Of a stretch of DNA of 64,000 nt, positions 5,341-51,275 are shown in pieces. The translations under genes were made by a program, and so were the position numbers. This DNA comes from Cenococcum geophilum 1.58. Lineage: Eukaryota; Ascomycota; Dothideomycetes; Gloniales; Gloniaceae. The notes under the pieces were generated by a model. That model did no database searches. It saw only the letters and a program-made list of their open reading frames with translations, and was not told the DNA's origin. Within the stretch, counting starts at the first letter, position 1, and every line of letters begins with the position of its first letter. Where the stretch lies: assembly GCA_001692895.1 (NCBI GenBank), contig KV748182.1:3104341-3168340 (forward strand). The letters run 5' to 3'.

Positions 5341-5462
5341 AGGATTACTAGGTAGTAGGTTAAAAATATTAAAAGGGCTGCTAAGGCGCTGATAGTAAGC
5401 GAGCTAATAGCGATTTTCTATACTAGGTATAGAAAATCCTAATTAATTAGCTTATAAGTTAG
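5341..5462 (-). repeat. Partial Copia C-like 3' module, target of the hAT insertion
   Basis: Closely matches 32715-32810 in Copia C: GGGCNGCTAAGGC, TAGTAAGCGAGCTAATAGCG, then the ATTTTCTAT/ATAGAAAAT hairpin and AATTAA. The hAT interrupts it in TAAGTTAG, and GGTCTATA resumes at 17096 exactly as in Copia C. So an older Copia fragment lay here before the hAT arrived. Confidence 0.65.
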
Positions 5463-9271: not shown

Positions 9272-9458
9272 TGTTACGGCACTGACCTAACGCATACTGT
9301 TTTATACTGTCTCGTACTATTCCCTACTATTGGCTGGCCCACCACTAGCGACTTAGCGGCCGGCCCTACTATTTGTATACAATACCCCCTTTCTACCTTC
9401 TTTCCCTCTTTATACTATAACGTAGTTATTTAGTCTACTTTATTGCAGCACTGTGACA
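9272..9458 (+). repeat. 5' LTR of Gypsy A
   Basis: 187 bp, TG...CA, nearly identical to 16000-16186. Confidence 0.92.
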
Positions 9459-12400
9459 GTTTATAGTATTTTTAATTTAGGCCCTGTCGCAATCACTAAT
9501 TCCCTATACTTTAGCTAATTGACCTCTACCCTAGAGTAATCGCGACCTATACGCGCCTCTACTAAAACTAATACGTCCCTAGTATAGTCCTAGAACAATC
9601 CTTAGTTTTTACCTAGCGCCTAAATAGGTAATACTAATAACGCCGAAATGGCTAAAACCTAGAACCCCTGCGACGTTTTTATAGACCTATTTATAGAGAC
9701 ATACCCCAATATCGCGTGGATAATCCGCCGCTCCCTACTATACTTTAAGACCTTTAAGCCTAGCAAAGCTTACCTTACCCTTGTTAACTATACTAATGAG
9801 TTCCTTAATAATATTAAAGTAGGACTATAGTGTATATATAATATAAACACCGCTAATAAGAAAGCTAACGAAAACCTTAGTGCCCTTATTACTTCCTAGA
9901 TAGGAACTATTAACTCCTANGNAGAGACTATTACCGTTCTAAAACAATTAACCCCTATAATAATGGTAGTAACCTAGCAGAAAAAATAGAGATCTAAAGA
10001 CCCGCTAATATTTAGCGGAAAAGGCACCCCGCTAGAATAATAAGCTAATTTTAAAACCTGGCATATTAAGATTAAGGGAGTCTTTAACTAGGACTGGGAC
10101 TACTTTAACATAGTTTAGTCCTAGATCCTTTATATCTCGGATATGCTAGAGGATAAGGCCTATGAGTTTATTAAGTAGGGCCTAGAGCTTATACACAAGA
10201 ACCCAAATAATATATTTGCGTGGAAATGGCCTACTAAGGAAGATATGCTTAAAGACCTTACTGCCTACTATGAGGTCCTTAATATAACCTAGGTTGCAAA
10301 GAATAAGCTTAACTATTTCCCCTAAGGCGAGCGTAATTACTAGTCCTAGAAGGGAGAGCTTAATAAGCTAATAGTCCGCGCTAAGAAGATAGATAAACAG
10401 AAGGTGGACCTACTCTAAAAGTTTATCTCTCTAAAGATAGAAGAGCTAGTACTTAAACTAGCCTATAAAATTAATAATAGTGACTATATAGGTTAGAGTA
10501 AGCAGATGGATATATTTGCTAAGAACTTTGTAAACTATACATACTAAGCCAACCTTAAGAAGAACGCTAACCACCGCCTACCTGCCTAAGCCTCTACCCT
10601 TATGTTAACCCTAACCCTAGCAATAACTAGAGAACCTATGGACCTTAATAGAATCTTAGACATAGAGTATAAGCGCCGTGTTAATAATAGACTATGCCTT
10701 GCCTATAGCCTGCCCAGCTATTAAAAGGATGCCTATAACCCCGCTAAGACAGTAAACCTAGTCCTAATACTACCCTATTAAACGACGTAAATAAATAACC
10801 GCGGACGTGGCGACCGTGAAGTCTATTATAGACGCGGCGACCGTGGAGCCTATTATGGCCGCGGCGGACGACCCCCCCCCTTTAACCCTATAGCTCAGTT
10901 ACTCTAAACTATGCCCTATATAGGAGCCTAACCCGTTAATAATGCCTAGTATTAGCGACTTTACGCTAGCGAATACGAACACGGCCATGTTATTGGTGAG
11001 GTATTATCTTCCTATACCCCGACTGAAATAAAGATAGACACCGCCAGCTAGATGGACACTGGACCGCCCTGCTAAGACAGCCCTATACCCTAGTTGTTAA
11101 AAGGTAGACCCTTAGACTAAGTTGCGCCTAAGGGTCTAAACCATATAAGGAGGAAGACGAGAAGATTAGGTCCCTATTACTAGATTAATTAGTCCTTTCT
11201 ATTAGTAAACTGCCACTTAATCTTAGATTAATAAATAGTAACAAAAAATTAATCCTTGTTTAAACCTAACTCTCCTTATTACGTAATCTATACCCCTAAG
11301 TTTATATTAATATAGTAAGCCTAGTGGACTCCGGTAGTACTATAATAGTATTTGCTAATATAGAGTCTATTATAAGAAAGTATAACGTTATAACTAAGAA
11401 GCTGCTAGCACCTAGGCCACTACGCCTCGTAGATAGTATTCTAACTTCGCTTATTACGGACTACTTTACCGCCTAAATGTTAATCGGCCTCTATACTAAA
11501 GCCATACTCTTTTTTATTACTAAACTCTCGCCTACTACCCTAATTATCCTAGGTATGCCCTGGCTTTAGAAGCATAAGCCCCGTCCTAGCTTTAGGAAAC
11601 TCAAGATCTGCTTTAACTTAAACTACTACTCTAGGCACTACCTCCTGTAGGGGATAGCCGACGTTAGTAGGGACGCCCTATATAGACACTTAGTACTACT
11701 AAGCCTAGTGCCTAGGACTATATATAAAGCCCTAATAGTAAAAGACGTTCCTAATAAAGGGGAGCCTATACAGCTGTAAAGAAATGAGATAGTGGAAAAC
11801 TGGACTAACCTAGCACTTAAGACTAAAATAATGGGCTAGCTAGCCCTGCTAAGACCAAGGAAGAAGGTCCGCTTTATGCCGCTACTACTAAGAAACTAAC
11901 CCTAACCCAGGTACTATTTAAACCCTAGCCGCCTAGCCTAATACCTAGAACTAAGCTATATGCTATATGCGCACACAACAGCTCGCGTTATAGTAAGGAT
12001 TAGCTATAGAACTACTAAGACCCGGATAATAAAAACCGCGCCACTGTAACGCCTAACCTTATACCCGTCTCCTGCGCGTACCATATAGGGCCGCCGCCTT
12101 ATTTCTGCCCCCCTGGGCTAACTAAGCTGTACTAGCCTAGCCGTAGTACTAGAGAGCCAGATATACCTTAACCTGGACAATATTAAATATACCTATACTA
12201 TTAATTTTACCCAGTTCTATAAATAAAAAGATATAAAGGTAATAAGGATCTATATAGCGGAGCTAGTAGAACTGGTTAAATAAGATAAGCACTAATAGCT
12301 GCTTAAAGAGCTGCCTATAGGCCTAATAGAAGTACCGAACCTATTAAAAAGGTCTTTCTGCTAGCTAGTAGAAGGCGACTATACAATAAAGGAAGCCCGT

Positions 12401-15400
12401 AAAGCGCTCCCCCCCTATTTTTACAACTTCCTTAAAATAAATCTAAAAACTAAACCCAAGCTTTTACATCAGAAGATAGTTAATACCGATATTAAAAAAT
12501 TCCTAAAAGGTAAACTAGGATTAACCCGCGAAGATATTTTATAACGCCTACTAAAGGAGTTTAGTAAATATATTAAGCACTTCCTCCCTAAGAATATAGA
12601 TAAGCTGCCCCCTTACCAACTATGGGACTATAAAATTAAGATTACCCCTGGAAACTAGGCCCTATATTATAAAAATAGACCACTCTTACCTGCTAAACTT
12701 AGGTGTATAAAGAAGTGGATTAATAAGATGCTAGATAAGGGTTTTATCCGCAAATCGACCTTACCAGCTACTATACTACTCCTCCTCGCTACTAAGCCTA
12801 GTGGTGGTGTATAAATCTACTATAACTACTAAGGCCTAAATATAGTTACTATTAAGAATTAATACCTACTGCTACTAATCCGCAAGACACTTAACGCACT
12901 TTATGGCGCTAAGTACTTTACTAAACTTGATATAATTACTGCGTTTAACTAGATCCGGATTGCAGAGGGCTATAAGTAGCTTATAGTATTTATTACCTGG
13001 TTCGGACTCTATAAGATACTAGTTATACTATTTAGCCTCTATAACGCACCCGCTATATTTTAGAACTATATTAACTATATTCTATATAACGCCCTTAACG
13101 ACTACTATACTGCCTACCTTAATAATATTCTTATCTTTTCTAAAACACGCGCCGAGTACACTAAGTATGTAAATGAAGTCATCTAAAAACTCGGCAATGT
13201 TAGACTTTAGATTAATATTAATAAGTCTAAGTTCTACTCTACTAAAACAAAATACCTCGGCTTAATTATCTTAACTAATAGTATAACTATGGACCCTAAG
13301 AAGATATAGGCCTTATAGGAATGGAAGGACCCGATATTAATTAAAGAACTATAATAATTTCTTAGCTTCGCGAACTTCTACTAACGATTTATCTAAGGCT
13401 ACTCTGCTATTACTACACCTATAATAAAACTTCTAAAGAAGGATATTAGATGGCTATGGGGACCAGAATAAGCTAAATCGTTTAAGGCCCTTAAGGGAGC
13501 CTTTACTTCAGCACTAATACTAGCATACTATAACTATACGAAGAAAACAGTAGTAGAGATAGATGTATTGAATTAGGCTTCTAGCGGAGTCCTTTCCCAG
13601 TATAATAATAATAGAAAATTAAAACCGGTCGCATTCTTCTTTGTAAAGCACTCCGCGCTGGAATATAACTATAAGATCTACGATAAAGAACTCCTAGCTA
13701 TTGTTAAGGCTTTAGAGAAATAGTGTCCTAAGCTATAAGGGACTAAGGAGCTGTTTAAAATTATTACCGACTATAAGAATCTATAGACGTTTATAACTAC
13801 TAAGTAGCTAAACTAGTGCTAAGTCCGGTGGGCAGAGTTCCTTTTATAGTTTAACTTTGTAATTATATATAGACCTAGCAGCAAAGCCACGCTCCCTAAC
13901 GCCCTAAGCCGGCTACTAGGAATAAGGCCTAAGGACGCTAATAATAAACGCCTCCGCCACTAAGCCTAAGTTATTATACCGCCCTAGAAAGTTAACCCTA
14001 TAATCTTAGAAGAATTACTATATAAGTCCCGTAACTCTAATAACGCGGAGTTTATAGCCGCTCTAGACCCTAAAATAGCCGAAAAGTTACTAGATAAGTT
14101 AATCTAGCTAGAATACTAGGAGAACGAACTTATAAGAGATATAGTAATAGCCCTACGTAATTGGAAAGCTCGCCATTAGCTAAAGAAAATTAGGAAATTA
14201 CTCTATTATAATAAGTTAGAATATAGTATTATTGACAGATAGATCTACTTCCACCAACGTCTCTTTATCCCTAACGCCCTAGACCTCCGCCTAGAAATTA
14301 CCTATTACTCTTATAGCAGCGGCCCCGCTGGTTACCCTAGCCGGGTTAAGACTCTTAACTTCTTAAACCAAACATACTAGTGGCTAGGAATCTCCCAGTT
14401 TATAGCTACCTTTATTAAAGACTATGCCCTATACTTTCGCACTAAGACCCCCTATTCTGCCCCGCCCGGTTTCCTAAAGCTACTAGAATTACCCGCCCGC
14501 CTATAGACCGATATCTTAATTAACTATATTATAACGCTGCTAGTATATTAACGCTATGGCAAGGTATATAAATATATCCTTATTATTATAGACTGCCTAA
14601 CTAAAATGTAATACCTCGTTCTAGTAACAGGACTCTTAATAAAGGAGTTAGTTAATGGCTTTATTAATAACGTATATAAGCTCCATGGTGCACTAAGCAC
14701 AATTATCTCCAATCGCGGCATATAATTTATTAGCGACTTTTAGCGATAACTAAGTAAATACCTTAAGATAACCTTGCAACTAAGCTTAGCCTAGCACCTA
14801 GAAACGGACGGCTAAACCAAAATTATTAACGCCGCCGTAAATAAATACCTTTATGCTTTTGTTAGCTTTATATAGGATGACTAGGTTAACTACCTACCGC
14901 TTACTAAGTTTACCACGAATAACCAAGTCAACGAGAGCATAGGCATCTCCCCGTTTTTTGCAAATTATGGCTTTAACCCTCACCTTAGAATTAAGCCTGC
15001 TGGCCCCTACCTACCGACACTATTAGCACAAGCAAAGAAGGAGTTCTTCTACGTAAACTCTGTGGCCAACCGCTTTAAGCGGATATTAATATAGCTTAAG
15101 GCCCTAGCCTGGATTTTATAGCAACGCTATAAAGATAATACTAATACCTATAAGGACGAGAGCGCGTTATTCTATGAAGGTAATATAGTTATAGTTAGCT
15201 TAGAAAATATAAAGACAAACAGACCTAAGAAGAAATGGGACAATAAATGGGACGGCCTATACCCCGTACTCGTAGTATACTAAAGGGCAGTTATAATAGA
15301 CCTCCCGGACCACATCTAAGTAAATAAATCCTTTTATACATCTAAGGTCCGCCTCTAGGCTACTAAAGAGATCCCTGGCTAAGCAAATATTAATACTATA

Positions 15401-15691
15401 AAGCGCTGTAATATACAAGGACGAGTAGTAGAGAGAGATAATAATAGCAATATAGAAGACAAATAGGAGTTTAAGAAAATCCTTAATATATATAACGAAG
15501 ACCCCTAGGGCCTAACTTATAAGATTAAATGGAAATATTATAAGGATATAACCTAGCAGCTAGAGGAAGACCTAAAGGGTTGCGAATAAGCTATACAGCG
15601 CTTTTATAAGCAACACCCTAAGAAGCTAGGACCCCTAGACTGGGTATAAGATAAGGAAAAGTCACGCTAAGGTCGCGGCCGACCACCGCAT

Positions 15692-15930
15692 TAAAATTTA
15701 TAGTAGTTAAGATGTTATAGAACTTTAACCGGCGGTCAAAGTTGTCTAATTAGCCAAATTCTTGCTAAGAAACGCCATACGGACCGATTTAGGTGGCGGT
15801 ATAGAGTTCTACCGACCTTACTCACTAAACTAACCAATTAGGATTTTCCATGCCCGGCATAGAAAATTGCTATTAGCTTAATTAAGGGCGGTAAGCGGAA
15901 CTAATATCTTTACGGTAGAAAATAAACAAC
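15692..15930 (+). repeat. Shared palindromic module in the 3' region of Gypsy A
   Basis: Lies between the chromodomain and the 3' LTR. Begins near GTTAAGATGTTATAGAAC, then the palindrome AACTTTAACCGGCGG/TCAAAGTT. Next come ATTCTTGCTAAGA, GGTGGCGGTATAGAGTTCTA and the hairpin ATTTTCCAT/ATAGAAAAT, and it ends GGTAAGCGGAACTAATATCT. The same order of motifs appears, in the same sense relative to the element, in Copia B (21165-21405, minus strand). Confidence 0.8.
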
Positions 15931-15999
15931 CCCGTACACTGCCTATTTTTAAGTTATTTATTTAGTTTAGGGACCAAACCATCTAGGGGAGAGGAGTAC

Positions 16000-16186
16000 T
16001 GTTACGGCACTAACCTAACGCATACTATTTTATACTGTCTCGTACTATTCCCTACTATTGGCTGGCCCACCACTAGCGACTTAGCGGCCGGCCCTACTAT
16101 TTGTATACAATACCCCCTTTCTACCTTCTTCCCCTCTTTATACCATAACGTAGTTATTTAGTCTACTTTATTACAGCACTGTAACA
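16000..16186 (+). repeat. 3' LTR of Gypsy A
   Basis: 187 bp, preceded by a polypurine tract at about 15985-15997 and followed by the TSD GGTTC. Confidence 0.92.
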
Positions 16187-16276
16187 GGTTCCTTAGTAGC
16201 CTATATACTGTACTAGCAACCACCAAGCTAGCGAGGTAGTGTTAGTTAAAGTTTACGAAAATTAAAACGCCACGGG

Positions 16277-16800
16277 TAGTTACTTATTTCTTAGCTTATT
16301 AATTAAATAATGTAGTAAGTATAGCTTTGGTATTCATATTAACTTTAAATCGCTTTAGTATAGTAAGGATTCTATATATATTCTTAAGGTGTTAACGGAA
16401 AGCAGTTATACTTAAGGAAGATTTTATAACACCATGATTGGAACACCACTTACAGTAAGAGAGCTCTTGTTTTAATTTGCCTCTTACTAGTAAGCCTACT
16501 AAAGCCTTATTAAGGGCGAATGATTAAAGAGCCTCATCCTCACGGGCGCACCGTCGCTTTAGTAGTGGCTCACTAATCTAGTAATTAGGATCCTCGCGAG
16601 CAGCTATAACATCATTAAACTTACGCAAATCGTAATCGCTGAGTATTGAGCTAGTAGTGGCTTCTTTATGGGTTCTCTTTTGGGTAGCAGGTGGTATAGA
16701 GGAATTAGCTAAGGGAGGTATAGCTTAAAGCGTAGGTAGTAAAGGTAAGGCAGATTAGTAGTAGATAAAAAGGTAAGGGAGCTATATATAGTACCCACGA
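16277..16800 (-). pseudogene. hAT transposase, N-terminal part with BED-like zinc finger
   Basis: Minus strand. One frame reads KQELSYCKWCSNHGVIKSS at about 16410-16470. The CKWC pair followed by NHG is a BED-type zinc finger position, as at the N-terminus of hAT transposases. Upstream is EPLLKRRCAREDEAL-like sequence. It continues into the block at 5600-7645 once the Fot1 insertion is disregarded. The product is broken by RIP-type stops. Confidence 0.65.
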
Positions 16801-17095
16801 CGCGTTATATACGCTTACTCTTCTACAGGCCCATATAGACGTATATTGTATATATTTTAATTAGTTTAGAGCTACGTATAGATATATAGATTACTACTAG
16901 CGATATATGCGCTAGATCTAGTACTTAACACTATAGCTCTCTTATTACTACTACCTATTCTTACCGCGGATAATTATATTATTATATCTACGTAACAAAA
17001 TCACTAGGTGCAATTATAATTCGATTAGTTATGTTACTATATAATTGAATATAACTGTAATTAACTAACTAATTATTGCTATGTCTGTAAGTTAG

Positions 17096-17925
17096 GGTCT
17101 ATAAAAAATAGTAAAATGCGATAATATAGTAGAATATAGTAGAATACGGTAATATAGCAGAATATAGCAGAATGTAGTAGTATCTTATTAGGTGTAAGAG
17201 CTTTGCTTAAGAATATTTAGTCGCTTTAGGGCAAATCCTTAGTATATTTAAGAGTTAGGTACTAGCAAAACCGCTAAAAACTAGCCCTAGAGTAGCCGTA
17301 TAGCCCTATACCTCCTAATTATATAGTTAAAAAAAATTATATTCCCTTATATAACTGCGATAGATAGATACTAGCGTTTATATATTACTTAATAGTATCT
17401 ATTTTAGTAATATATAATACTAAAACCTCCTATAATATTTGCGAATATTAAACGTAATTACTATATAGCTAATTTACTTTTCTTACCTACTATCCTTTAT
17501 ACTTAGTATATATTATATATAGATAGCGCTTTAAGGTAATTCTTTAATAGGTACTAGGAACTAGCAAAACCGCTAAAAACCTACTTTAGTGCGACTATTA
17601 TAGTTAGATAGCTTTATAGCTATAGGCTTATAGTTAGGGACATTTAGTTGCTTTAAGGCAAATCCTTAGCAGATTTAAGTGCTAGGTACTAGTACAACTG
17701 CTAAGAACTGGCCCTAGAGTGACCTTATAGCCCTATACCTCCCAATTATATAGTTATAAAAAAAAATCCCCTTACGTAACTACGATAGATAGATAACACT
17801 TATTAATTTTTAGTACTACTATTTATAATATTTATATTGTGATTTACTAGCTATAAAGGCTAGAAATAATAAGCTATAATATTATCTACGCCTCTTTACC
17901 AGTCGTATAAGATATTGACTAGGGA
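17096..17925. repeat. Pair of about 170-bp direct repeats, RIPped
   Basis: 17213-17385 and 17639-17805 share the ordered blocks GCAAATCCTTAG, TTAGGTACTAG, CTAGCCCTAGAGT or CTGGCCCTAGAGT, AGCCCTATACCTCC and CGATAGATAGATA. Together they are roughly 85% alike by eye. A third partial copy (GGTACTAGGAACTAGCAAAA) lies at 17549-17590. No coding was found between them. It may be a miniature terminal-repeat retrotransposon or a local duplication. 17110-17190 also holds ATAGTAGAAT-type short repeats. Confidence 0.6.
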
Positions 17926-19165
17926 CTAATATAACAAAAGCTCCTCCCTGCTTTGTTGCATCCCAAAATTCTTGGATTTTTGTTGGCTGGTATATCCAAT
18001 GAATGACCTTGGACCTAAAACTCCCAAGGAGCTGCTTTGACATATCGCAATCGTCTTCCCCTTGAGTGTACTTTAAAGCTTTGTTCCATTTAAAACGATA
18101 GGAGCATTTACTACCTATTGGTATGTTAGCTTCGCAATAAGTCCTTGCAAACCCTGCAGCAAAACAATTTGCAAAACCCCTAACAAGGGAACTTACAAAG
18201 CATCATTTTACAACCTCCGGTCTTTTGAATCGGCGCCCTGCATTGTGGACATAATCTTGTCCAAGTGATCTTCCAGTTTTCTGACTTCTTGCGCTGTTTA
18301 TTTATTTTCTTGACCTCGTTCTTATGTTGGTGCTCATACTGCTCACAGGTTTCTCCAGTGTGCCAGGTCACGTTATGTACTATACAGAATTGGGAATGAC
18401 AGTCCTGACATTCAAACATTGGACCATCAACTGTCGGCTTGTGAATCTGACCAGATGTGCAGCCTGCACGAAGACACCAGCGGACACTAGGATTTGCGCT
18501 GAAGGCTGCACGCTTAGCGAGTATACTATACCTGCTTACAGTCAATACTTAAATACTAGTGTGCATTAAAACCCATTCTAGATTTGTTTAACGCACCTGT
18601 CATACGTGTCTCTATCCGCGTGATTTTGCATATCATCTTGATGCAGACGGCTAGAACACTCTGGACATACAATCATGTCCCATCCTCTTTGTTGAAGCTG
18701 CGAGGCCAGCCAGGCTTGGATGCATGACTTGCAGGTGTATGTGTCGTGACTACAATGCTGGGTCACTTGCGATGGGAAGTGATCCTCTGACATGTCTTCA
18801 TCGCATACAATGCACCGCCTTGTCTTTTGTGGTGCCCTTTCAGGTCCGATTTCATGAGCAGCTGCCCATATCTGATGATTCTGCCCCTTACTCTCGGGAT
18901 CAGTTGCCCTACTACCCTCTTTACTTGACGGATATGGGTCCGGCGGCCTGCAATAGGTGATATTGCGCTCCGATCCGGACTCTGAAGCTGGGAGGATAGA
19001 ATCAATAGTCGAAACTTGCCTATTTGACAGTGGCTCGCCCTGGAAACCTAGGCTTGTGGGTGGTACCAAAAAAACAGCTTTTGTGTCTTGCGCTGTGTTT
19101 AGGAGTGCCAGTCGTGAACTTTCAGCCGTGGGGCCAAAATGGGGCCCAGGAGCGGTTGAAGTCAT
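17882..19165 (-). CDS. RBR (RING-IBR-RING) E3 ubiquitin ligase-like protein, 3 exons
   Basis: Predicted exons are 19165-18597, 18531-18197 and 18153-17882 (stop TAA), giving 391 aa. Intron 1 (18532-18596, 65 bp) has GTGCGT...CAG and joins TYD to RYSILA in frame. Intron 2 (18154-18196) has GTAAGT...CAG but is only 43 bp. The start is the first in-frame ATG (19165); the open frame extends upstream without another ATG. RING1 spans residues about 118-169 (CIVC...HCSHDTYTCKSC...CPEC), IBR about 195-255 (WCLRAGC...CQDC...FC...H...C), and RING2 starts at 284 (CPQC...TGGC297). RBR proteins pass ubiquitin through the RING2 cysteine in GGC, which is present. The usual following His-Met is Lys-Met-Met, and the second half of RING2 is not recognisable in exon 3. 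If intron 2 is retained, the protein ends at about residue 306 in CKFPC. No RIP signature. It may be a divergent, decaying or mis-modelled gene. Confidence 0.72.
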
Positions 19166-19547
19166 CGCTGTCGTCGGTGTAAAGTCTAGTAGTTTTGACA
19201 CCGGGTTGCGTGCAGAGAAAGGACTATTCAACCCGTTGCAGCCTAGGCAGAGATGAAATACTAATGCCTATCTTGTCTTGTTGGTGCTACATGTGACTCA
19301 GCTTCAGCCTACGCCAAGATCCCTAACGAATCTGATAGGTTGCTTATCTTTATCTTATAAATCAGACTTCGGTGAATCGTTGGTAGGTGCACTACGCGAA
19401 CGTGCGGGACCAGACCTGCGGAGGATAGATTATCCTATCTAGTCAGGCGGATAATGATCATATCCGAGGATAGCCCGGATATCGGATAATATCCGGATAA
19501 TATCTGGGTAAGGCTTGGCATCCATAAAATTTCAACTAAACTACATA
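19166..19547. other. Non-RIPped intergenic DNA upstream of the RBR gene
   Basis: Normal base composition. It contains clustered copies of GGATAATATCCGG, ATATCCG and GATATCGG at 19450-19505, giving overlapping small palindromes. They could be regulatory or a decayed short repeat. No other gene seen; it probably includes the RBR promoter. Confidence 0.5.
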
Positions 19548-20190
19548 CGAAGGCGCGCGACGGTGAAATCCGTCCATTTTTAATTGGCTACGCACGCGAA
19601 TCTAGAACACCAAAGAGACTATAGTAAATTGTATATAAAATAAAGTATTAACCATGAAATTCATTCCCTCCTTCAAACTCTGTAATAAGGTTATTGATAG
19701 CGGCCATTCTCGTAACTAAAGCACGTATCCTCTCTTGCGGAAACTTCTCCCACTCTGCTCTCCACGCGCGATTAGTCCATTCTATCATATGTGGGGCATT
19801 CCACTGCTATGTAATCTCTATTCTTAATGGCATCCATACCCCTTTAATTGCGTTCATTTCAAGAGAGTTACCAATGTGCTCAAGTAGGGGAATGCCCTCT
19901 TTTTGTAGCCTCCGTTGCGTCCTAAACGTCGGCAGCGGCATTCTTGATATCCGTAGCAGTCGATTTAGCAAGCCCTGCTCTGCGCGCAGCTTCAGCTTAA
20001 TGAACATAAAGCAAGTAAGTTAAGAAGATGGCCTTATCGACGTCCGTAGCATGCTTTCCCATAGCAAAAATGCTGAAAATGTAATTAATTAAGGTTGGTG
20101 GGGCGAGGAGAGTTTAGTGGGGTTCGCTAGGAAAAATCCTCGCTTGGGCAACCGGTGAAAATGGACGGATTTCACAGTCGTGCGCCTTCG
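19548..20190 (-). mobile_element. Tc1/mariner-type transposon, internally deleted (643 bp)
   Basis: Inverted ends CGAAGGCGC(G/A)CGAC, then GTGAAATCCGTCCATTTT (about 33 bp), flanked by TA at 19546-19547 and 20191-20192. On the minus strand an ATG near 20060 (MGKHATDVDKA) leads to a helix-turn-helix-like AEAARRAGLAKSTATDI segment. The frame then runs to the C-terminal end of a Tc1-like transposase: a NAIKGVW-like remnant of the N-x-I-E-x-x-W block, then QERIRALVTRM and EGGNEFH before 19650. The catalytic middle is missing, so this is a non-autonomous deletion derivative. Little RIP is visible, which fits its short length. Confidence 0.82.
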
Positions 20191-20233
20191 TAAAGGAGAG
20201 CCAATATATGATTTAAAGAAACAGAAATATATT

Positions 20234-20390
20234 TACTAAGGCCCTGCACGAAGCTCTGCGTACGGAGGCTCTGCACGACGGCTCTGCGTACGACGGCTCT
20301 ACTACGGAGGCTCTATATAAAAGCTTTGTACAGAGCTTTGCGCAGAGCCTCTATATACAAAGTTTTATATAAAGCCTTTATATAATATAA
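20234..20390. repeat. GCTCTGCGTACGGAG minisatellite
   Basis: Degenerate 12-15 bp units (GCACGAAGCTCTGCGTAC, GGCTCTGCACGACG), decaying rightward into AGCTTTGTACAGAGC and AAAGCCTTTATATA. It is the reverse complement of the array at 24170-24530 inside transposon T. Confidence 0.7.
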
Positions 20391-20399
20391 ATATATATA

Positions 20400-20825
20400 A
20401 CGTATTCCACCACCGAGCCGGCAGAACCACCGAGCCGGCAAGTCCATTTCCCCACTAAAAATCGTAAAAATCACAATATAATATCTTAACAACCACTTAA
20501 TAATAAATTTTAAAAATTTATATTTAGACTTTTATATACGCTTTGCAGCTTCTATTAAAGTTGTATAGTAATTAGTTGAGTGGTTTTTAAAATATTATAA
20601 TTTGGGGGCCAAAATATAGCCAAATTACTATATCTTAAAAACTACTAAACTAATTATTATGCAACTTTAATAGAAGCTGCAAAGCGTATATGAAAGTCTA
20701 AATATAAATTTTTAAAATTTATTATTAAGTGGTTGTTAAGATATTATATTATGATTTTTACGATTTTTAGTAGGGAAATGGACTTGCTGGCTCGGTGGTT
20801 CTGCCAGCTTGGTGGTGGAATACGT
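20400..20825. mobile_element. Foldback MITE, near-perfect 426-bp palindrome
   Basis: Two arms of about 205 bp are reverse complements over nearly their whole length (outer ACGTATTCCACCACCGAGCC, inner GCAGCTTCTATTAAAGTTG), around a short centre near 20605-20625. TA at 20398-20399 and 20826-20827 fits a TA target duplication. No coding capacity; an RNA copy would form one long hairpin. Confidence 0.85.
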
Positions 20826-20854
20826 TATAACTAATATACGTAATAGAGTTATAC

Positions 20855-21033
20855 TATTGGTTATATAGGGTGACTCACCAATAACGACTACTCGAGTAGG
20901 GTTACAGTGATATTGGTTAATAAAGCTTATTATTTAGAATTAGGGGGTGGGTGAGGAATTTAAGGTTCCTTACCACGCTAGTGCCGCGGCGACACGTGAC
21001 GACACGTGACGACCGCTTGCCTTATTCCCGACA
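20855..21033 (-). repeat. 3' LTR of Copia B
   Basis: 179 bp; the partner of 29462-29640. In element sense it begins TGTCGGGAATAAGGCAAGCG and ends AACCAATA. It contains two to three CACGTGACGA repeats. AAAGAAGAGTTGCCAG just before it in element sense is the likely polypurine tract. Confidence 0.9.
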
Positions 21034-21164
21034 CTGGCAACTCTTCTTTTGTAGTTACCATCTATATACACTTATAGATTGCTACCATATAAAGATACAA
21101 AGCTAAGGAGAAGAAGAAGAAGAAATGAAGGGGAAGAGGTAGCGTAGGTAGATGTACGGGTTCA

Positions 21165-21405
21165 TACGAAGATATTAGTTCCGCTTACCGCTCTTAGCTA
21201 AGCTAATGGCGATTTTCCATCCTAGGGATAGAAAATCCTAATTGGCCAGCTTAACAAATAGCGTTAGTAGAACTCTATACCACCACCTAAATTAATTAGG
21301 TGTAGCGCTCTTAGCAAGAATCTAACTAATTAAACAACTTTAACCGGCGGTTAAAGTTCTATAAGATTTTAACTTCTTTAAATTTCCCTTTTAACCTAAC
21401 CTTTA
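21165..21405 (-). repeat. Shared palindromic module in the 3' region of Copia B
   Basis: The reverse complement aligns motif by motif with 15692-15930 of Gypsy A: TTATAGAACTTTAACC, GGTTAAAGTT, ATTCTTGCTAAGA, GGTGGTGGTATAGAGTTCTA, the ATTTTCTAT/ATGGAAAAT hairpin, and GGTAAGCGGAACTAATATCT. It lies between RNase H and the 3' LTR. Confidence 0.8.
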
Positions 21406-22544
21406 ACTCGCATATATAGAGTATTTATATTAACAAACGTCTCTAGTGCCTTATTTGGGTTTACCTTCGTTATTATATCTACTGGGTTATCTTAGCTATT
21501 AATCTATTAGATCTTAAAGAGTTCTTAACGCTTATAAAACTACTAAAGTACTATAATATCGATTATAAGGCGCTTCTCCTTTATAGTACTAAGCTTAACT
21601 AAACACTCGTAGAGGGAATATAAGTTGGTGTATATAATTGTAGGGATAATAGGAAGTTTGAGTTAATCTATAATTATCTTAAGGGTAGTTCCAATTGTAA
21701 TTGCTATATTAACTCTACTAACTATTCTATATATCTCTAACACTAGAACACTTTAAGTAACATATTTACTCTTAGTTAAGCTCTAATAGATAAGATTGCC
21801 GTAGATTATAAAGTTATTCTCTTCAGTAGATTCGTTTGCTATAATAATTTTATATCCTAGCTAAGAGCTAAAATCTTTATTATTTATAAACGATCTATTA
21901 ATAAACACAAATAGCTTAGTAGTAGGAAGATTAATAGGCATATAGAGTAGTCCCTAATTAAGATAGTTTATTTACTAGGAAAGACGCTTATTTAGGTTAA
22001 AAATATTATCCTTAGTTGGTTCCTAGTGTTAGGCGGCAATAAAGAGATTAAAGAAAGCTTTAGGTTAATAGATAGAAGCTATATAAGCTCCATAAGCGCG
22101 TTACTCTATATATCCTTACTTTAAAGAATTAACGTTAATAACGTTAATCTTTTTGCCTTAACCTTTCTGGCGTAGGGCAATGGAATCCTTGTTTAGGGAA
22201 ATAATGCATCTATTAAAGAGTAATGGTATTATTAAATTAAGTCTTTCCTTTGGCTTTACTATAAGGTTTACCTTTACTAGCTCATCTTCTTTAAGAGCTG
22301 AAAATTAGTCATCTCCTAAGATAATTATATTGTTTATTTATATGCCGACGATTCCAAATGGAGTTCCTATAGCTATAATAAGGAAGCAGGGATTAAATAT
22401 AGAAGTAGTTATTAAAAGCTTCTCTTTATAGTGCTTGCTATAAGTAGCCTACTACATCGGCAAAATATGGTACCCTTTCAATGGCCTCAATGGTTGGTGG
22501 TTGACGCAATTGGCGCGCAGTTGAGGGCATTTGGCAACTCGACC

Positions 22545-22640
22545 GACTAGCCTATGTCGTGTTTTTTTGACACGCAGCCTGCGCGCAGCCTACGCGCAAC
22601 CTGCGCGCAACCTGCTAGTAATCTGCGCATTTGGCAACCA
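22545..22640. repeat. GCGCGCAGCCTGC short tandem repeats
   Basis: Four to five copies of CGCGCA(G/A)CCTGC near 22573-22616, between two copies of CATTTGGCAAC (about 22528 and 22627). Located in the left unique end of transposon T. Confidence 0.6.
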
Positions 22641-22764
22641 TAATTATATTTACCTCTTTTATACTAATAATATATTTTAAATAAATAAAAGCTATTTTAA
22701 AGCTATTTATAAGGCTAGCAAAATAAATATTATTATTTTAGATAATTTAATATAATACAGCGAT

Positions 22765-23165
22765 GGTTCTCTTCTACCTATCTACCTATTGACTTACCTA
22801 CCTGCCTGCATCGCCTACCTATTTACATCGCCTACCTATCTACATCTACCTACCTATCTATATTTACCTACCTGTTAGCATCTACCTACCTATCTGCATC
22901 TGCTTACCTATCTGCATCTACCTACCTATCTTATATCTACTTGTCGTGCATTTACCTACCTATTTATATCTACCTACCCGTCAGACATATACCTACCTAT
23001 CTATATACTCTGCTTGCCTAGTCATCGCATCTACTTACCTATCTACAGTCTGCCTGCCGCCTATCTATATCTGCTTACCTGTCTTGCATCTACCTACCTG
23101 TCTACATCTACCTACCCGTCAGCATCTACCTGTTTATGCCTACCTGTCTATGCTACCTTAATTCG
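22765..23165. repeat. Minisatellite 1 of T (CTACCTACCTATCTGCAT)
   Basis: Pyrimidine-rich units of about 17-20 bp, strongly strand-asymmetric, repeated about twenty times. Open frames here (YLPTYL-like) are repeat artefacts. Confidence 0.85.
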
Positions 23166-23185
23166 ATTGATCGATCGAATCGTTT

Positions 23186-24035
23186 ATAGTATTGGCTGGC
23201 TAGTCGTTGTCGTCATAGCTCTGGCGACGGTTGTCTAGTTCTAGCGACGGTGGTCGTCTAGTTCTGGCAACGGTCGTCTAGCTCTAGCAACGGTCGTCTA
23301 GTTCTGGTAACGGTTCGTCTGGTTCTGGCGACGGTCATCTAGTTCTAGTAAACGGTCGTCTGGTTCTGGCGACGGTCGTCTTAGTTCTGGTAACGGTCGT
23401 CTGGCTGGCGACGGTCGTCTGGTTCTAGCAACAGTCGTCTGGTTCTGGTAACGGTCGTCTGGCTAGCGACGGTCGTCTAGTTCTAGTAACGGTCGTCTGG
23501 CTGGCGACGGTCGTCTGGTTCTGGCGACAATCGGTCTAGCTCTGGCAACGGTCGTCTAATTCTAGTAACGGTCGTCTGGGCTGGCGACGGTCGTCTGGTT
23601 CTAGCGACGATCGTCTGGCTCTGGCAACGGTCGTCTGGTTCTAGTAACGGTCGTCTGGCTGGCGACGGTCGTCTGGTTCTTGGCGACGGTCGTCTGGTTC
23701 TGGTGACAGTCGTCTGGTTCTAGCGGACGGTCGTCTAGCTCTAGCAACGGTCGTCTAGTTCTAGTAACGGTCGTCTAGCTGGCGACGGTCGTCTGGTTCT
23801 AGCAACAGTCGTCTAGTTCTGGTAACGGTCCGTCTAGCTAGCGACGGTCGTCTGGTTTCCTGGTAACGGTCGTCTGGCTAGCAACAGTCGTCCTGGTTTC
23901 TGGCGACGATCGTCTAGCTTCTGGCAACGGTCGTCTGGTTCTGGCCAACGGTCGTCTAGCTGGCCGATAGTCGTCTAGTTCTGGTAACGGTCATCTGGTT
24001 CTGGCGACGGTCGTCCTAGTTCTAGCAACGGTCCT
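23186..24035. repeat. Minisatellite 2 of T (CGGTCGTCTGGTTCTGGCGA)
   Basis: About forty units of 20 bp with 16-bp variants lacking GGTT, about 850 bp in all. GG/AG and GA/AA alternation inside units looks like transitions. It has no spacers, so it is not CRISPR-like. Confidence 0.9.
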
Positions 24036-24169
24036 CTACTTAGCTGCCGTTCTGGTGCCTCCCTAGGTAGGGAGGGATATAAAGAAGGAAGGAAGGGTAA
24101 AAAATAAGGTGGCTTACATAGGGTTAGAGGCCACGTGTAGAGGCTATCGGGAATATAGCGGGGACCCGA

Positions 24170-24530
24170 TGCAAGAAGCTTCGTGTAGAGCCTCTGTACG
24201 CAGAGCCTTCCGCGCAGAGCCTCGTGCAAAGCCTCTGTACGCAGAGCTTCCTTCGCAGAGCCTTCGTGCCAGAGCCTCTGTACGCAGAGCTTCGCGCAGA
24301 CCCTCGCGCAGACCCTTCGCGCAAGACCCTCGTGCAGAGCTTCGTGCATGAGCTTCGTGCAGAGCCTTTCTGTACGCAGAGCTTTCGTGTAGAGCCTCGT
24401 GTAGAGCGCTTAAATGCGAAGCTTCGTGCAGAGCTTTGTGCAGAGCCTCTATGCGCAGAGCTTCGTGCAGAGCCTCTGTACGCAGAGCTTCGTGTAGAGC
24501 TTCGTGTAGAGCCTTATGCAGAGCCTCCAA
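24170..24530. repeat. Minisatellite 3 of T (GCAGAGCCTCTGTACGCAGAGCTTCGT)
   Basis: About 12-bp half-units GCAGAGC(C/T)T alternating CTGTAC and TCGT. Same family, opposite orientation, as 20234-20390 outside the element. Both strands give repetitive open frames that are not genes. Confidence 0.88.
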
Positions 24531-24542
24531 GTAATAAAGACT

Positions 24543-24590
24543 TATAAGATTGTATAAGATTGTATAAGATTGTATAAGATTATATATAAT
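24543..24590. repeat. Minisatellite 4 of T (10-bp AGATTGTATA)
   Basis: Four consecutive 10-bp units, the last two slightly changed. Confidence 0.85.
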
Positions 24591-24639
24591 AGTTAAATTT
24601 ATATAGTATATAACTTTACCTTAATCGCACGTTAAGAAA

Positions 24640-25075
24640 TTATACAGTTAGCTTTTAAAGTTGTTAAGTAGGTTAACTGCATATTAAGTTAGTTAAATTG
24701 ATATTTAAGTAGGTTTAACTATATATTAAGTAGGTTAACTGCGTGTTAAGTTAGTTAAATTATATATTAAGTAGGTTAACTACGTGTTAAGTTGGTTAAA
24801 TTGTATATTAAGTAGGTTAACTGCGTATTAAGTTAGTTAAATTGTATATTAAGTAGGTTAACTGCGGTGTTGAGTTAGTTAAATTACATGTTAAATAGGT
24901 TAACTACGTGTTAAGTTGGTTAAATTGCATGTAAGTAGGTTAACTATATGTTAAGTTAGTTAAATTGCATATTAAGTAGGTTAACTGCGTGTTAAGTTAG
25001 TTAAATTGTATATTAAGTAGGTTAACTGCGTGTTAAGTTGGTTAATTGCGTGTTGAGTTAATTAAATTGCATGTT
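24640..25075. repeat. Minisatellite 5 of T (about 41-bp dimer)
   Basis: About ten copies of a dimer: TTAAGTAGGTTAACTGCGTG, then TTAAGTTAGTTAAATTGTATA. Both halves contain GTTAA and differ regularly, so the array is a higher-order repeat. Confidence 0.88.
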
Positions 25076-28000
25076 AATTACGCGAAACGCGAAAACCAAA
25101 GTCTACTTAAATCTCATCCTGCGAATATTTTCCTGATGTAATAAGTTCCTGCCTTTACGATTTTATATAGTGGCTTAAGCACAACTATAATCGTATCTTC
25201 GGGATATTGGTGGCGAATTTGCTCTGGAAAGTATGCTAGTATTAAGCGCTAAAGGCGTATCTCTGATTGGGTATAGGCCTAGGTAATATTTTATAAATAA
25301 ACCGCTATTCTATTCTTTATTAAAGAGGGAGCTAGCGCAATAATAACTTGCTAACTAGCTCGTTAAATTATAGGGGATTATATAAAAATTACTTCCTTAC
25401 TATTATTGTTATAACCTTAAATAACTAGCCTTAACTTCTTAAATGGGGTATTGGTAGCTTTACCTTTAATCTTATTAATCATTCTTAACCTAAATATGCG
25501 AACCCTATTAAACTTAGTAGGGTTATACTTCTTAAACTTAAAGACTTTTCTTATAATAAGACCGTTAATCTCCTACTTATTAGATGCTTAGAAAGGAGCT
25601 TCTAAAGTTATAATACGGCCTTTCTTTTAAAGCTATTTTACGAGCTTAAAGTTAGCCTTCTCTTTAGCTATTATAAAGGCCATTAATAGCTTAACTCTAT
25701 TCTTGATGGTGGTAATGAGTTGCTCTTTAAAATTGATAAGGTATTAGCAGTTTTGTAATCCCTTCGGGCGACCTCTACTGCGTCATAGTTGCGGCGTATC
25801 TACTATAGTTATATTAGGGTTATAGTTGCCTTCTAGGGCACATTAATTGTGGTTCTCCTTTAGGGTATCTTCTAGGGTATCTTCTGGGGTATCCTATAAA
25901 GGCTTAGAACTATTATCTTTATAGTAAGGCTTAATGACAGTTAAATGGAATTAAGTAGGTTTATGGGGTATCTAAAAAGTATAAGTCTAACTATTAATTA
26001 TAATAAGTTTATATAGGCCTAACTATCCTCCCTTTTTACGCCATACGCATACCTTAGATTAGAGTGGTAGATTAAGTATAATTAAGGTATTTGGGCTATT
26101 TCTTATTCCTAGTACGTTATTAACCTGGCGCGTAGTGTAGAGACGTTATACCTCTTTTATTACCTTATAAATCGCCTTAGCTTATTGCATAATAGAGGGA
26201 GATAGTAGAGAATTGTTAGTTATTTAAGGGTAAGCGCTAAAGACTAGTAATGTAGGTATAAGCCCATCTGGGCTAGCGGTATTATTAACAGCCTTAACAG
26301 CCATTTATAGGATAAGCTCTTTGCTAGTACCCTCTAGTTTTAAAGAAATAATCTTATATATGCGGCGTAATGGCGTATGGTATTATTCTACCTTTTTAAC
26401 ACCATTATATACCTTAACAGGGACTTCCTTAACCTTAATTGTTATTACCTTTACCTATTATCGAAACTCTATAGATAAGAAGTTCTTTCCTATGTTATAA
26501 ACAATTTAATTAGGGGGTTCTAGGTAGACATTAATCTAGTATAATTAAAGAGTATCCTATATATTCCTAGCTAATATATCTTTTAAAAAGCGTACGGCTT
26601 AAAAGGAGGTTAAAAAGTTAATAACTTAGAGTACTGGCTTGCCGCTAAGATATATAACATCTATAATAATATAGAAGTTAAAGTTGTAGTTATTTTTAAG
26701 GGTAAACTTAAATCGGCCGGGGGACTTCTGGTTTATTTAGTAGTAATAATAGTACTTTATAAGATGTTTAATTGCCTTAACCTTAACTTTATAACCTGCT
26801 TATTAAAAAACCCTAAGTAGTTAGTAAACGGATAGGTGGCTAAAACGACGATATAGTTAATATAGCTCTAACTTGGTTAAGTGACTCTAAGCAACGCTCC
26901 TTTCTGGCTATTAAAGGAGCAACTAAGGGTGACCCTACTTGCGTACGACGGGCACCTAATTATCTCCCTAAACAAGTATATTCTTAAGGTTGTTAAGCTT
27001 AATACCTAATTTATCTATATCTTAGATATAGAATAGGAACGGGGTATTCGCGGGAATAATATAGAAAGTGATATATCCTAATGGGGTTTAGACCTTAATT
27101 GTGCCAAAAGAGATTATAGTACCCTTACTAAAGCGAATTGTATATTAGCCTACCGTTAATTAGTTAATCTAGATAGAACTATTAAGCTACTAAAGAGCTT
27201 AGACTTAAGGTTCTCCTGCTATAGATACTCCTGCGGCTCTAGTATCTGGCATAATACTATAAAAGACGTTTGCCGAGTATTTATTATTAAAAAAGAACGC
27301 GGAACTTTCCTTTAGCTTATTAAAGATATTTAACCTTATAATAGAATAGAGTATAGATTAGTCATTAAGGATAGCAATGGTTTGTGCGCCATTTACCTTA
27401 CTATACTTAGTAAAGTATTAGTTAAAAGAGTAGTCCTTAATTTCTATATCCATAAGGAGCTGTTCAGCCTCATTAATTTTACCCTTAAGATCTTCTTCGC
27501 CTTTATATTAAACCAAAAAGCTTTAGAAGTAGGCTATAGTAACTTCTTAGTTTCTAACGTTTTATATACTCTAGCGAAACTTATTATATGCCTTCTTTTA
27601 TCTATTAAGGGGGTATCTAGTTAACTAGCAATTTGGCTTCTTATAAACGTAGTATTTCTTCTACTAATTATTACAAAATAAACCTCTATAAGGACCTCTA
27701 TAATTGCTTTATAGTTAACATTAATTATACCCTCTACTATATCCCCTACTATAACTACTATATATTTAATCAGTTTAGTTATAATCGTGTTAGTCAGCTA
27801 GGTCAATTAAAGTAGGTTAGAGTTAGGCGTTAAATTACTATACTTTTTAAGAGCGTAGGGTAGTGCTAATAGAGGATCTTAATTAAGTATACACTCCTTT
27901 ATAAGTACTTATAGGGTTAAAGAGAGTAAGGTTATATTCTTTAACACCTTAATATACGCTAATAACTTAATCGCGTAAGCTAAAGTTCTCTTAATATAAT

Positions 28001-29461
28001 TTAGATAAACCACGCTAAATTATCTAAAGTTGATTAAAGAGCTTTTAAAGATAATTAAGTTAAGAGGCACCTAGGTTTATAGCAATAATTTTTAGGAAGG
28101 TAGTCTCTCTCTACTCTAACATATACTGCTGCTTATTCTCCTCTATTTTAAAGTAGTATCTTATTTTATATATTATTCGGTTAAAATTATATCCTTTTCC
28201 TACCAAACGATTATAATAGAAGGTACTAGCTCGGCCCTTAAGCATAACTAAATAAGTAATATAGTATTAATTAGGTTCTAGTCTAACCTTCTAGCAATAG
28301 TCGTAGAAGATACGTAACTTTAAATTAAGGATATTATACAGTTCTCCGCTAAACTTCTTCTCCTATTCTAAATAGAGCTTTATAAGCTCTATAAGTATTT
28401 TTAAGGTGCCTCTAATTAGTGTTTGGCTGTATTATATTATAGGCTACAATAGTAATATAGATCTAGTTGGCGGAGTTTAAAGGTTATTAGACCGCGAAGT
28501 AAGGGGATCTTACGCTTATTAGGGGTTGTTAATTAAGGCTATAGGTTAAGCTAGTTAATATAGGGGAGTTAAAAATAGAGGTAAAGGTGATAGATATAGA
28601 ATATTAGAACTTATGCCTAGAGCAATAGAGTTAGAACGTGTCTTTAGTAGTGTATTACTTAGGTTCTATTATAATTTAAGCTTCTTTATAGTATATAGTT
28701 AGTGCTTAATCTCTTATAGAGTCTATTTATACTCTTCCTTTATATTAATAACGTGTTCCTAAATATTGTCTTTAATACTACCCCCATCTATAGGGACAAA
28801 TACTCTATACTCTTAAAGGAAGTTACGGAAGTCCTATATAATATCTTTATTTATAGGAACCTATGTTTCCTTTATCTATCTAATAAAGTCCTCCTTTATA
28901 TAATACTATAGCGCGGTATTATTATATTTGCTGTCTTTATAGTGTTCTATACAGTATACTAAGAATCTATTTAGGTTCTATTACTTGGCGGTTATAAAGT
29001 TAGTTATAGCTCTGTCCTATATCTCCAGGTTAATATCTTTCTTATACTTCTTTAAATAGATTAACGCTATAGTAGGTAGAATCGACAAGGTGTTATATAT
29101 TAAAGATAGGCAGGATTTTCGGTTTTATAGAATCTCGTAGGTTTGCTATCTAAAGGTGGGCAATTTAAGATATTGTTTAACGCGTTTCGGACGTCAACTT
29201 AGGACTTTAGGTTTAGTAACACTTCTAACCTAAAGTACTCGACCAAATCTTTATAAACGTGATTGTTCTACATAATAGACGCAACTTGGTATCTCCTAGT
29301 ACTCAATAACACTTCTGTTACTAGTTTTCCGCAAGTCTAAGGTAGTATAGTATCGCTGGGATCTATACATATAAGCGCATATAGCACCCCTATATAAGAT
29401 TATCTCTTCTGTTAATAACCTAGCTGCTCTATAGTTGACTGTATATTCAACCACTGATTAG

Positions 29462-29640
29462 TGTTGGTTATATAGGGTGACTTACTAATAACGACTACTT
29501 GAGTAGGGTTATAGTGATGTTGGTTAATAAAGCTTATTGTTTAGAATTAGGGGGTAGGTGAGGAACCTAAGGTTCCTCACCACGCTAGTGCCGCGGCGAC
29601 ACGTGACGATACGTGACGACCGCTTGCCTTATTCCCGATA
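29462..29640 (-). repeat. 5' LTR of Copia B
   Basis: 179 bp; ends (element sense) TATATAACCAACA, followed by CTAATCAGTGGTTG, a plausible primer-binding region. Confidence 0.9.
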
Positions 29641-32326: not shown

Positions 32327-32543
32327 TGTTGGTTACACAAGGTAATATCACGTAGCTACGGTTCGTAGATAGTATAATAATTGTTCTTCTTATATCTTAA
32401 TAAGGGAGGGCAAGGAGTTTAAAGCTCCTCGCCACGCTAGTGCCGCGGCAACACGTAACGGCAACTTGCCGCACGTAACGGCAACTTACTATATATAACG
32501 GCAATATACCTTATATAGTAACTACTTGCCTTTATTCCTAACA
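32327..32543 (-). repeat. 3' LTR of Copia C
   Basis: 217 bp, with three to four repeats of a (CACG/TATA)TAACGGCAA unit. The internal side begins CTAGCAACTCTTCTTTT (polypurine on the minus strand). Confidence 0.9.
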
Positions 32544-32699
32544 CTAGCAACTCTTCTTTTATAGTTGCTATCTATATATATATACCGCTTAACTATTAAA
32601 ACAAATATTAATCCTCCTTATTTACTATTACCATTATAATATAAGTCTTACTATCCTAAAATTTGCCTCTTAGTACGTAGTGCTTTTTTACTTATAAGT

Positions 32700-32905
32700 T
32701 ATGGGTAGGTATTTTATTCGGAGGGCCGCTAAGGCACTAGTAGTAAGCGAGCTAATAGCGATTTTCTATCCTAGGGATAGAAAATCTTAATTAACTAGGT
32801 TAAGTTAGGGTCTATAGACTATTATACTCCCCCCTTTAAAAAAGTCTTAGTAAGAGAATCTAACTAATTAAATAACTTTAACCGCCGGTTAAAGTTCCTA
32901 GATAT
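32700..32905 (-). repeat. Diverged copy of the shared module in Copia C
   Basis: Keeps both palindromes: ATTTTCTATCC/GGATAGAAAAT at 32759-32788 and AACTTTAACCGCCGGTTAAAGTT-like sequence near 32873-32897. The stretch between them is replaced by different sequence. Confidence 0.7.
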
Positions 32906-37904: not shown

Positions 37905-38085
37905 ATAGGGTTTAGGACTAGTTCTAGCCTTAAATTACAAAGACTTATAAAGCGTGTTATTCTACGTAATAAACGTAAAAATCTATAATCTTAGAAAGGC
38001 TTAGGACTAGTTTTAGCCTTTAGATCCTTAGATTTATAGAAGAGTTCTATTTAAGGTTTAGGACCAGTTCTAACCTTAAAAGACA
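37905..38085. repeat. Three leader repeats in Copia C
   Basis: GGNTTAGGACTAGTTCTAGCCTT recurs near 37909, 37996 and 38056, between the 5' LTR and Gag. Each copy is itself partly palindromic (AAGGCTAGAACTAG/CTAGTTCTAGCCTT). Confidence 0.6.
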
Positions 38086-38185
38086 GCTTCCTCTAGCATA
38101 AGTAGCACTAGTATAGTGGCTTATCTCTTCTTAGTGGAATACCTAGCTACTCTGTAGTATAATAGTAAAGTTAACTACTAATTAG

Positions 38186-51165: not shown

Positions 51166-51275
51166 GAAGGCACCTCAGGAGGGATTTCCTATATATTTCC
51201 TTACATGTTTTATAGTTCTATTAAGGCAATTACGGAGGCTGTATATAAGTGGTTTTATTTTCTAAGTACCGCTAG

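Follow-up and report, generated by a model that had tools for sequence, protein, structure and literature searches.

A palindrome-rich 3' module common to a Gypsy and a Copia-like retrotransposon in Cenococcum geophilum

The stem-loop s2m, 41 nt in length (PMC10062133), is located in the 3' untranslated region (UTR) of RNA viruses from four families, has a scattered distribution, and is thought to be mobile (PMC3653767). In the GalEa retrotransposons of the Copia type, a palindromic, non-coding Conserved Hairpin Site has been described right after the 5' long terminal repeat (LTR), and an extended version of it is conserved between distant families in five species (PMC5445492). The Sireviruses of plants, otherwise diverged Copia elements, have highly conserved non-coding motifs, one of them an inverted repeat that surrounds the terminal polypurine tract (PMC2829016). 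The RNA transport element (RTE) of the mouse intracisternal A particle (IAP) stands in the order pol/RTE/polypurine tract and recruits the export factor Nxf1 via RBM15 (PMC2674570). Transfer of LTRs between related lineages, by template switching or conversion, has been discussed for wheat retrotransposons (PMC9744471). Among the open-licence papers listed as matches in our literature search, the available text contained no report of a non-coding 3' block common to Copia and Gypsy elements in fungi. Here we describe such a block, a palindromic module of 217 nt that lies behind pol in a Ty3/Gypsy element (Gypsy A) and in a Copia-like element (Copia B) of Cenococcum geophilum 1.58. Both elements belong to a stretch of 64,000 nucleotides (contig KV748182.1 of assembly GCA_001692895.1, positions 3,104,341 to 3,168,340), the whole of which is called the window below.

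The module and the elements that carry it

A self-BLAST of the window aligned the two module intervals (Table 1) on opposite strands, which corresponds to the same element sense, over 218 columns with 80.3% identity (E 2e-40). In the 217 columns of an alignment without gaps, the two copies were 78.3% identical and differed by 32 transitions and 15 transversions. The local alignment score was 217, whereas the maximum of 300 dinucleotide shuffles was 26. An earlier note on this stretch, made from the letters alone, had claimed that the two elements carry the same module in the same sense, and the comparison confirms it. The note had also named similarity confined to the short hairpins as grounds for giving up the claim. 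Such confinement was not found: 8 of the 15 transversions cluster in one island of 15 columns, and the identity over the 202 columns outside it is 83%. The sequence GGTAAGCGGAACTAATATCT is the same, letter for letter, in both modules.

The match starts 5 nt upstream of the pol stop of Copia B and, in Gypsy A, at a cluster of three in-frame stops (TAA 15692, TAG 15701, TAG 15704). This cluster probably contains the true pol stop of A, as earlier in-frame stops, probably made by repeat-induced point mutation (RIP), occur too. The match ends 89 nt (A) and 135 nt (B) before the 3' LTR. The placement between pol and the 3' LTR that was suggested previously is thus refined, with a start at the likely pol stop, but the module does not directly adjoin the LTR. 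Similarity of the 5' flanks is at the level of chance (reached by 37 of 300 shuffles), and that of the 3' flanks is weakly above the mean (7 of 300). The module looks non-coding. Each of its six frames holds 4-10 stops in A and B and the substitutions show no codon pattern, so that a coding origin was rejected, with the caveat that RIP itself creates stops. A scan of the window with 4227 Rfam families produced no match that reached the gathering score, and no tRNA was found. Exact-pattern scans of viral and prokaryote genome contigs, collections in which fungal DNA is not expected, found no copies.

We assign Gypsy A to Ty3/Gypsy because reverse transcriptase, RNase H and integrase follow each other in this order between LTRs with a short target site duplication (TSD); the corresponding Pfam matches were RVT_1, RT_RNaseH_2/RT_RNaseH and then Integrase_H2C2 (19 bits, below its cut-off of 25.5). 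Copia B and Copia C, which has a pol block in common with B, resemble the GalEa Copia elements of fungi. Searches of Pfam and NCBIfam gave no match for either, nor did a PDB search for B, and the class therefore rests on other marks, namely the nonamer after the 5' LTR, a motif at the end of pol, and the similarity of pol to that of a third element, Copia G. The nine bases after the 5' LTR are CTAATTAGT in C and the derivative CTAATCAGT in B, which fit the GalEa CHSeq1, described as CTGATCAGT, CTAATTAGT or derivatives at this place (PMC5445492). Near the end of pol we found VDIITK (B), VDIIIK (C) and VDAITK (G), close to the ADxxTK at the end of the GalEa RNase H (PMC5445492). The pols of B and C match that of G at about 28-31% of residues, with E 1e-133 or better (best frames, stops read as X). 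Integrase-like and then reverse transcriptase-like stretches were discerned by eye. As in GalEa elements, whose LTRs have the form TGT...CA with 5-bp duplications, each terminal base pattern is present in at least one LTR of B and C, and the others differ by RIP-type transitions; the duplications are 5 bp long in Gypsy A, Copia B and Copia C alike.

Several other observations concern the same Copia elements. CHSeq2, which is complementary to CHSeq1, was not clearly seen by eye in B or C; it is exact in a second, G-related element, where the full Conserved Hairpin Site is found at 51854-51879 (CTGATCAGT with ACAGATCAG, including the A/A mismatch). The stretch preceding the 3' LTR of B, C and G (21034-21059, 32544-32570 and 51248-51275) is surrounded by an inverted repeat and ends in AG before the LTR (computed for C, by eye for B and G), which recalls the Sirevirus repeat around the polypurine tract (PMC2829016). 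Minisatellite arrays, among them units of about 18, 20 and 41 bp, lie within the pol of Copia B (22773-25080) and are absent from C.

Since Gypsy A and Copia B belong to different superfamilies, descent of the elements does not explain the shared block, as the earlier note had argued, and some transfer must have happened. Copia C has a diverged version of the module at the same place, in which both palindromes are kept as the note described, while not just the filler but also the tail differs from A and B. Searching the window with a profile of A and B yielded two additional copies of the core, D (E 5e-11) and E (E 2e-10), neither of which the note had listed. Copy D has the C-type tail and is split by a hAT-like element; across the empty site, D and C match over 97 columns. 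A profile of all five copies recovered these five, as it must, together with their own reverse strands, and no sixth place below E 1; on the reversed window, it gave one match (E 0.6). The profile searches of the window found no module in Gypsy F or Copia G. We considered whether D is the 3' UTR of the hAT-like element and rejected this, as the exact 8-bp duplication shows D to be the target into which that element was inserted. Three candidate LTR ends around copy E look like chance and were not used.

Table 1. Elements, module copies and hairpins of the window, with positions counted from its first letter
Feature	Position	Strand	Description
Module in Gypsy A	15694..15910	+	From likely pol end to 89 nt before 3' LTR
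Module in Copia B	21169..21385	-	pol TAA stop 21380-21378 within its first 8 nt
Diverged module in Copia C	32745..32961	-	Tail (to 32722) unlike A/B, common with copy D
Copy D	5374..5462	-	Core and C-type tail; interrupted at 5463-17087 by hAT-like element (TSD TAAGTTAG), resumes at 17096 (-)
Copy E	3086..3157	+	Core hairpin; 21 bp before TATAAAAG box at 3179
Palindrome 1 in A	15721..15743	+	10-bp arms, one mismatch, 3-nt loop
Core hairpin (palindrome 2) in A	15842..15868	+
Core hairpin in B	21211..21237	-
Palindrome 1 in B	21334..21360	-
Palindromes of other sequence at equivalent site in Copia G	51040..51200	+	Behind pol stop 51023-51025; one hairpin passes filter, others seen by eye
Gypsy A, full-length Ty3/Gypsy element	9272..16187	+	LTRs 9272-9459 and 16000-16187 (188 bp), TSD GGTTC
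Copia B, GalEa-like Ty1/Copia	20855..29640	-	LTRs 29640-29462 and 21033-20855 (179 bp), TSD TATAC (+ strand); pol similar to C and G
Copia C	32327..38402	-	LTRs 38402-38186 and 32543-32327 (217 bp), TSD TATAC (+ strand); pol block common with B
Pol block common to B and C	B 21386-27794; C ~32942-36652	- (B)	Near-identical between strongly diverged 5' and 3' ends
Copia G, third GalEa-like element	45459-51493	+	TSD GTAAC, CTGATTAGT after 5' LTR
Gypsy F	38620-45117	-	Paired LTRs

Age of the sharing and mosaic structure of the Copia elements

RIP-type mutation has left a strong mark on the AT-rich window, whose TpA/ApT is 1.68 overall vs 0.81 in a gene-like island at 17950-19400. Together with the GalEa marks, RIP would fit a host among the Pezizomycotina. 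Because RIP makes transitions, transversions were used as the clock. The two LTRs of Gypsy A are 96.8% identical and differ by 0 transversions, and the LTR pairs of A, B and C together have 0 in 584 sites. The A and B modules, with 15 in 217, are significantly more diverged (Fisher P 2e-9), and this holds when the island is excluded (7 in 202, P 7e-5). The two modules therefore split before either element was inserted. This disfavors the possibility, also raised in the earlier note, that one element is a chimera formed on the spot from its neighbor.

Copia B and Copia C are near-identical in the pol block only, where 29 transversions were counted in 3663 sites (<1%), with 11 in 876 at the third codon positions of a 2.65-kb part. 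The flanking 5' part, the 3' UTR and the LTRs are diverged, with 17 transversions in 163 sites of the module (29 gap columns) and 23 in 166 of the LTRs (64 gap columns). The edges of the block are sharp, one near 27790 and the other at the pol stop; around the former, windows upstream, which cover the LTR and, by position, a putative gag, have 6-32% transversions, and those downstream 0-2%. A sharp-edged pol block between diverged ends is a recombinant pattern, and B and C are therefore mosaics. In this light template switching, which the earlier note had offered as one explanation for the shared module, is plausible, as is some other recombination.

In a three-way comparison of the modules over 164 columns, transversions divided the copies as AB|C in 7 cases, AC|B in 2 and BC|A in 2; with all changes counted, the numbers were 21, 7 and 16. 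By transversions, the B module would thus appear nearer to that of Gypsy A than to that of Copia C, a grouping of small numbers in which some states may be ancestral. The tail of the C module (32722-32760) resembles a piece of the Gypsy A LTR (16055-16089; 80% over 35 nt, E 0.004), and this likeness may be another sign that sequence passed between the superfamilies, or may be chance.

Hairpins, proposed mode of action and alternatives

The core palindrome occurs in all five copies and palindrome 1 in three. Palindromes were required to have a minimum arm length of 10, a loop of 3-6 and no fewer than 3 G or C per arm; 26 passed this filter in the window, compared with 3, 1 and 1 in three block shuffles. 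Of these, the modules of A, B and C account for two each, and copy D and the 3' UTR of G for one each; copy E is off the list because its arms are poor in G and C. Between pol and the 3' LTR, one or more of the filtered hairpins are present in every one of the elements A, B, C and G. Palindromes thus follow pol in all three defined GalEa-like Copia elements with both LTRs; they fall into two types unrelated in sequence, one of which Gypsy A carries as well. In the core hairpin, 59 of the 60 pair cells of the five copies are formed, and one pair varies between G-C, C-G and A-T in different copies. Conservation of the palindromes is well supported.

The B module folds in the sense direction with a z of -4.7 relative to shuffles, and the C module with -2.1. 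When the 73 pairs of the B fold were followed in A, 48 were unchanged, 5 were kept by one change and 3 by two, and 17 were broken. A long hairpin extending beyond the core was clear in A and B alone; for C and D, the arms of A or B were a better match than those of the copy itself.

Two side observations concern palindromes of other sequence. Behind the pol of G and in its derivatives there are tandem palindromes around TTTACGGCC/GGCCGTA (51040-51200, 53715-53800 and 54080-54190), the unit number of which seems by eye to vary among copies. A hairpin with 11-base arms, also among the 26 that passed the filter, is present at 38976-39001; it precedes the 3' LTR of Gypsy F, which lacks the module, by about 90 nt.

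We suggest that the module is a hairpin-rich non-coding 3'-UTR cassette that begins close to the pol stop, was exchanged between element families by recombination, and probably acts as RNA via the host machinery; taken as a whole, we give this reading an even chance of being right. Its first part, the exchange between lineages, is well supported, and its route and function are proposed as follows. The simplest route would be template switching between element RNAs during reverse transcription, which would need both RNAs in one particle; recombination at the DNA level between older copies would be an alternative. The direction may have been from Copia to Gypsy, because B and C carry the module and G an analogue, whereas one of the two Gypsy elements that have paired LTRs lacks it. 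As for function, the stem-loops in the element transcript would most likely recruit a host factor that serves in export, stability or the formation of 3' ends. Ty1/Copia and Ty3/Gypsy elements do not have their capsid protein, integrase or priming region in common, and for this reason a host factor is favored. The priming regions of the elements compared here indeed differ between Gypsy A and Copia. An element-specific role in priming or packaging would not obviously serve both, because the LTR of Gypsy A is preceded by a purine tract of its own and inspection by eye revealed no GalEa-type hairpin site after the 5' LTR of this element. Of the functions that the earlier note had considered (RNA 3' processing, packaging or priming), a host-dependent one therefore seems more likely than packaging or priming, as elements with different priming regions carry the module.

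Several results weigh against this reading. The module was found in just one Gypsy element of the window, and the grouping of B with A leans on few transversions, in which shared states may be ancestral. The thirteenth pair of the core, at the tip, is formed in only 2 of the 5 copies and was excluded from the count above. The control for covariation is modest: among 500 shuffles, 13 reach the score, 22 the number of paired cells and 373 the number of pairs changed on both sides. The sense fold of the A module is no better than shuffles (z -0.92, reached by 35 of 200), whereas its antisense fold is better (-3.05), and in B the antisense fold (z -3.8) is about as stable as the sense fold. Only the 3 doubly changed pairs noted above (0-1 when slid) speak for compensation between B and A, against the 17 broken ones, a ratio blurred by RIP damage. 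Beyond the core, the arms pair above chance in A (P 0.001) and B (P 0.0015) and not in C, D and E (P 0.15-0.18). Finally, the position of copy E just before a TATA-like box would fit a role as DNA.

Such a role is the alternative that survives best, although we consider it unlikely. It holds that the palindromes are DNA sites for dimeric host proteins, such as transcription factors or an insulator protein, and that several elements have retained or gained the module as a regulatory block. The symmetry and short loops of the palindromes, the CCG-N-CGG that palindrome 1 has at its center by eye, the short distance of copy E from TATAAAAG and the near-equal stability of antisense and sense folds are all consistent with it. 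A precedent is provided by the Sireviruses: CGG-CCG forms the core of their palindromic boxes, which are located close to the TATA box within the LTR and also at the env gene (PMC2829016). However, the modules of A, B and C lie outside the LTRs and near the 3' end only, and the variable pair of the core is complementary in three forms, which suits pairing better than a fixed site, although it is a single pair.

Somewhat less probable is that the module is a small non-autonomous DNA element, or one similar to a short interspersed nuclear element, that was inserted separately behind pol in ancestors of the Gypsy and Copia elements. Short palindrome-rich elements are common in such genomes. Copies D and E of the core lie outside any definable LTR element, and a comparison of frames found their surroundings to match the pol of none of A, B, C, F and G, with the exception of two weak matches (E 0.012 and 0.058) on the upstream side of copy E. 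But the ends of the module (45 nt each) are not inverted repeats of each other (P 0.50 in A, 0.76 in B), and no target duplication was seen by eye at its edges, where no test was computed. Its sense and its position at the likely pol stop are identical in both elements, a diverged version occupies the same place in C, so that there is no empty site, and none of the five copies in the window is a free-standing full-length one (D and E are the core only, D with one tail). The self-mobile cassette with its own target duplication that the earlier note had envisaged is, in view of the ends, the edges and the five copies, not supported.

We give still less weight to the possibility that both elements independently captured the same host sequence, such as the 3' UTR of a gene or the gene of a structured non-coding RNA. 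Capture would explain the sharing across superfamilies without co-packaging, and also the core copies outside known elements; on the other hand, the window gave neither an Rfam nor a tRNA match, and it would be improbable for two captures to coincide both in place and in the limits of the 217 nt. Gene conversion between the two neighbors after their insertion, for which it can be said that A and B are about 5 kb apart in inverted order and that fungal repeats can convert each other, is very improbable in view of the transversion excess of the modules over the LTRs, which persists without the island.

If the module is a cassette exchanged by recombination, a 217-nt block common in place and sense to Copia and Gypsy would mean that RNA parts can cross the limits of superfamilies. 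The module would also be a natural test of which 3' signals in LTR retrotransposons depend for their recognition on the host rather than on the proteins of the element itself. For repeat annotation, it is a caution that 3' sequences can join unrelated families.

Other features of the window and comparison with known systems

The insertions around Gypsy A are nested. The hAT-like element that splits copy D has the ends CAGACATAGCAATAA and a weak match to Pfam Dimer_Tnp_hAT, below its cut-off. Inside it is a pogo/Fot1-like element, which has inverted ends near 7649 and 16279 and matches DDE_1 weakly, at a score below the cut-off, and this in turn contains Gypsy A. Copia B is adjoined on both sides by inverted repeats. 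Next to its 3' LTR is a near-perfect palindrome (20396-20829) with 210-bp arms that are 94% complementary and 14 nt between them, and next to its 5' LTR is a long inverted repeat (29639-30418) with the ends CAGTCCCTCGTCAAAAGT, which we would guess to be Tc1/mariner-like or a miniature inverted-repeat transposable element. The gene-like island mentioned above is richer in GC and has no RIP signature, and its - strand possibly codes for a RING-finger protein (match to zf-RING_2 below the cut-off, E 0.0017).

Among the known systems, s2m is the nearest parallel in behavior. The module differs from it in its length of 217 nt, in its several hairpins, and in its occurrence in LTR retrotransposons, and the Rfam scan of the window, whose families presumably include s2m, gave no match. 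We tentatively propose, as a less likely extension of the reading favored above, that the module is a mobile RNA cassette and the counterpart of s2m for LTR retrotransposons, that is, a structured 3'-UTR block that may have spread among Copia and Gypsy elements in one fungal genome and would benefit the transcripts that carry it via the host machinery. The RTE of IAP, with which the module was compared in sequence through the same Rfam scan, is nearest in position, and by analogy an export role might be conjectured. The GalEa hairpin site is nearest in host and in type of element, but the module lies behind pol and is found in a Gypsy element as well. The Sirevirus motifs are confined to one Copia genus, and no sharing with Gypsy elements is described in the available part of that account (PMC2829016), whereas the module is present in both Copia and Gypsy elements.

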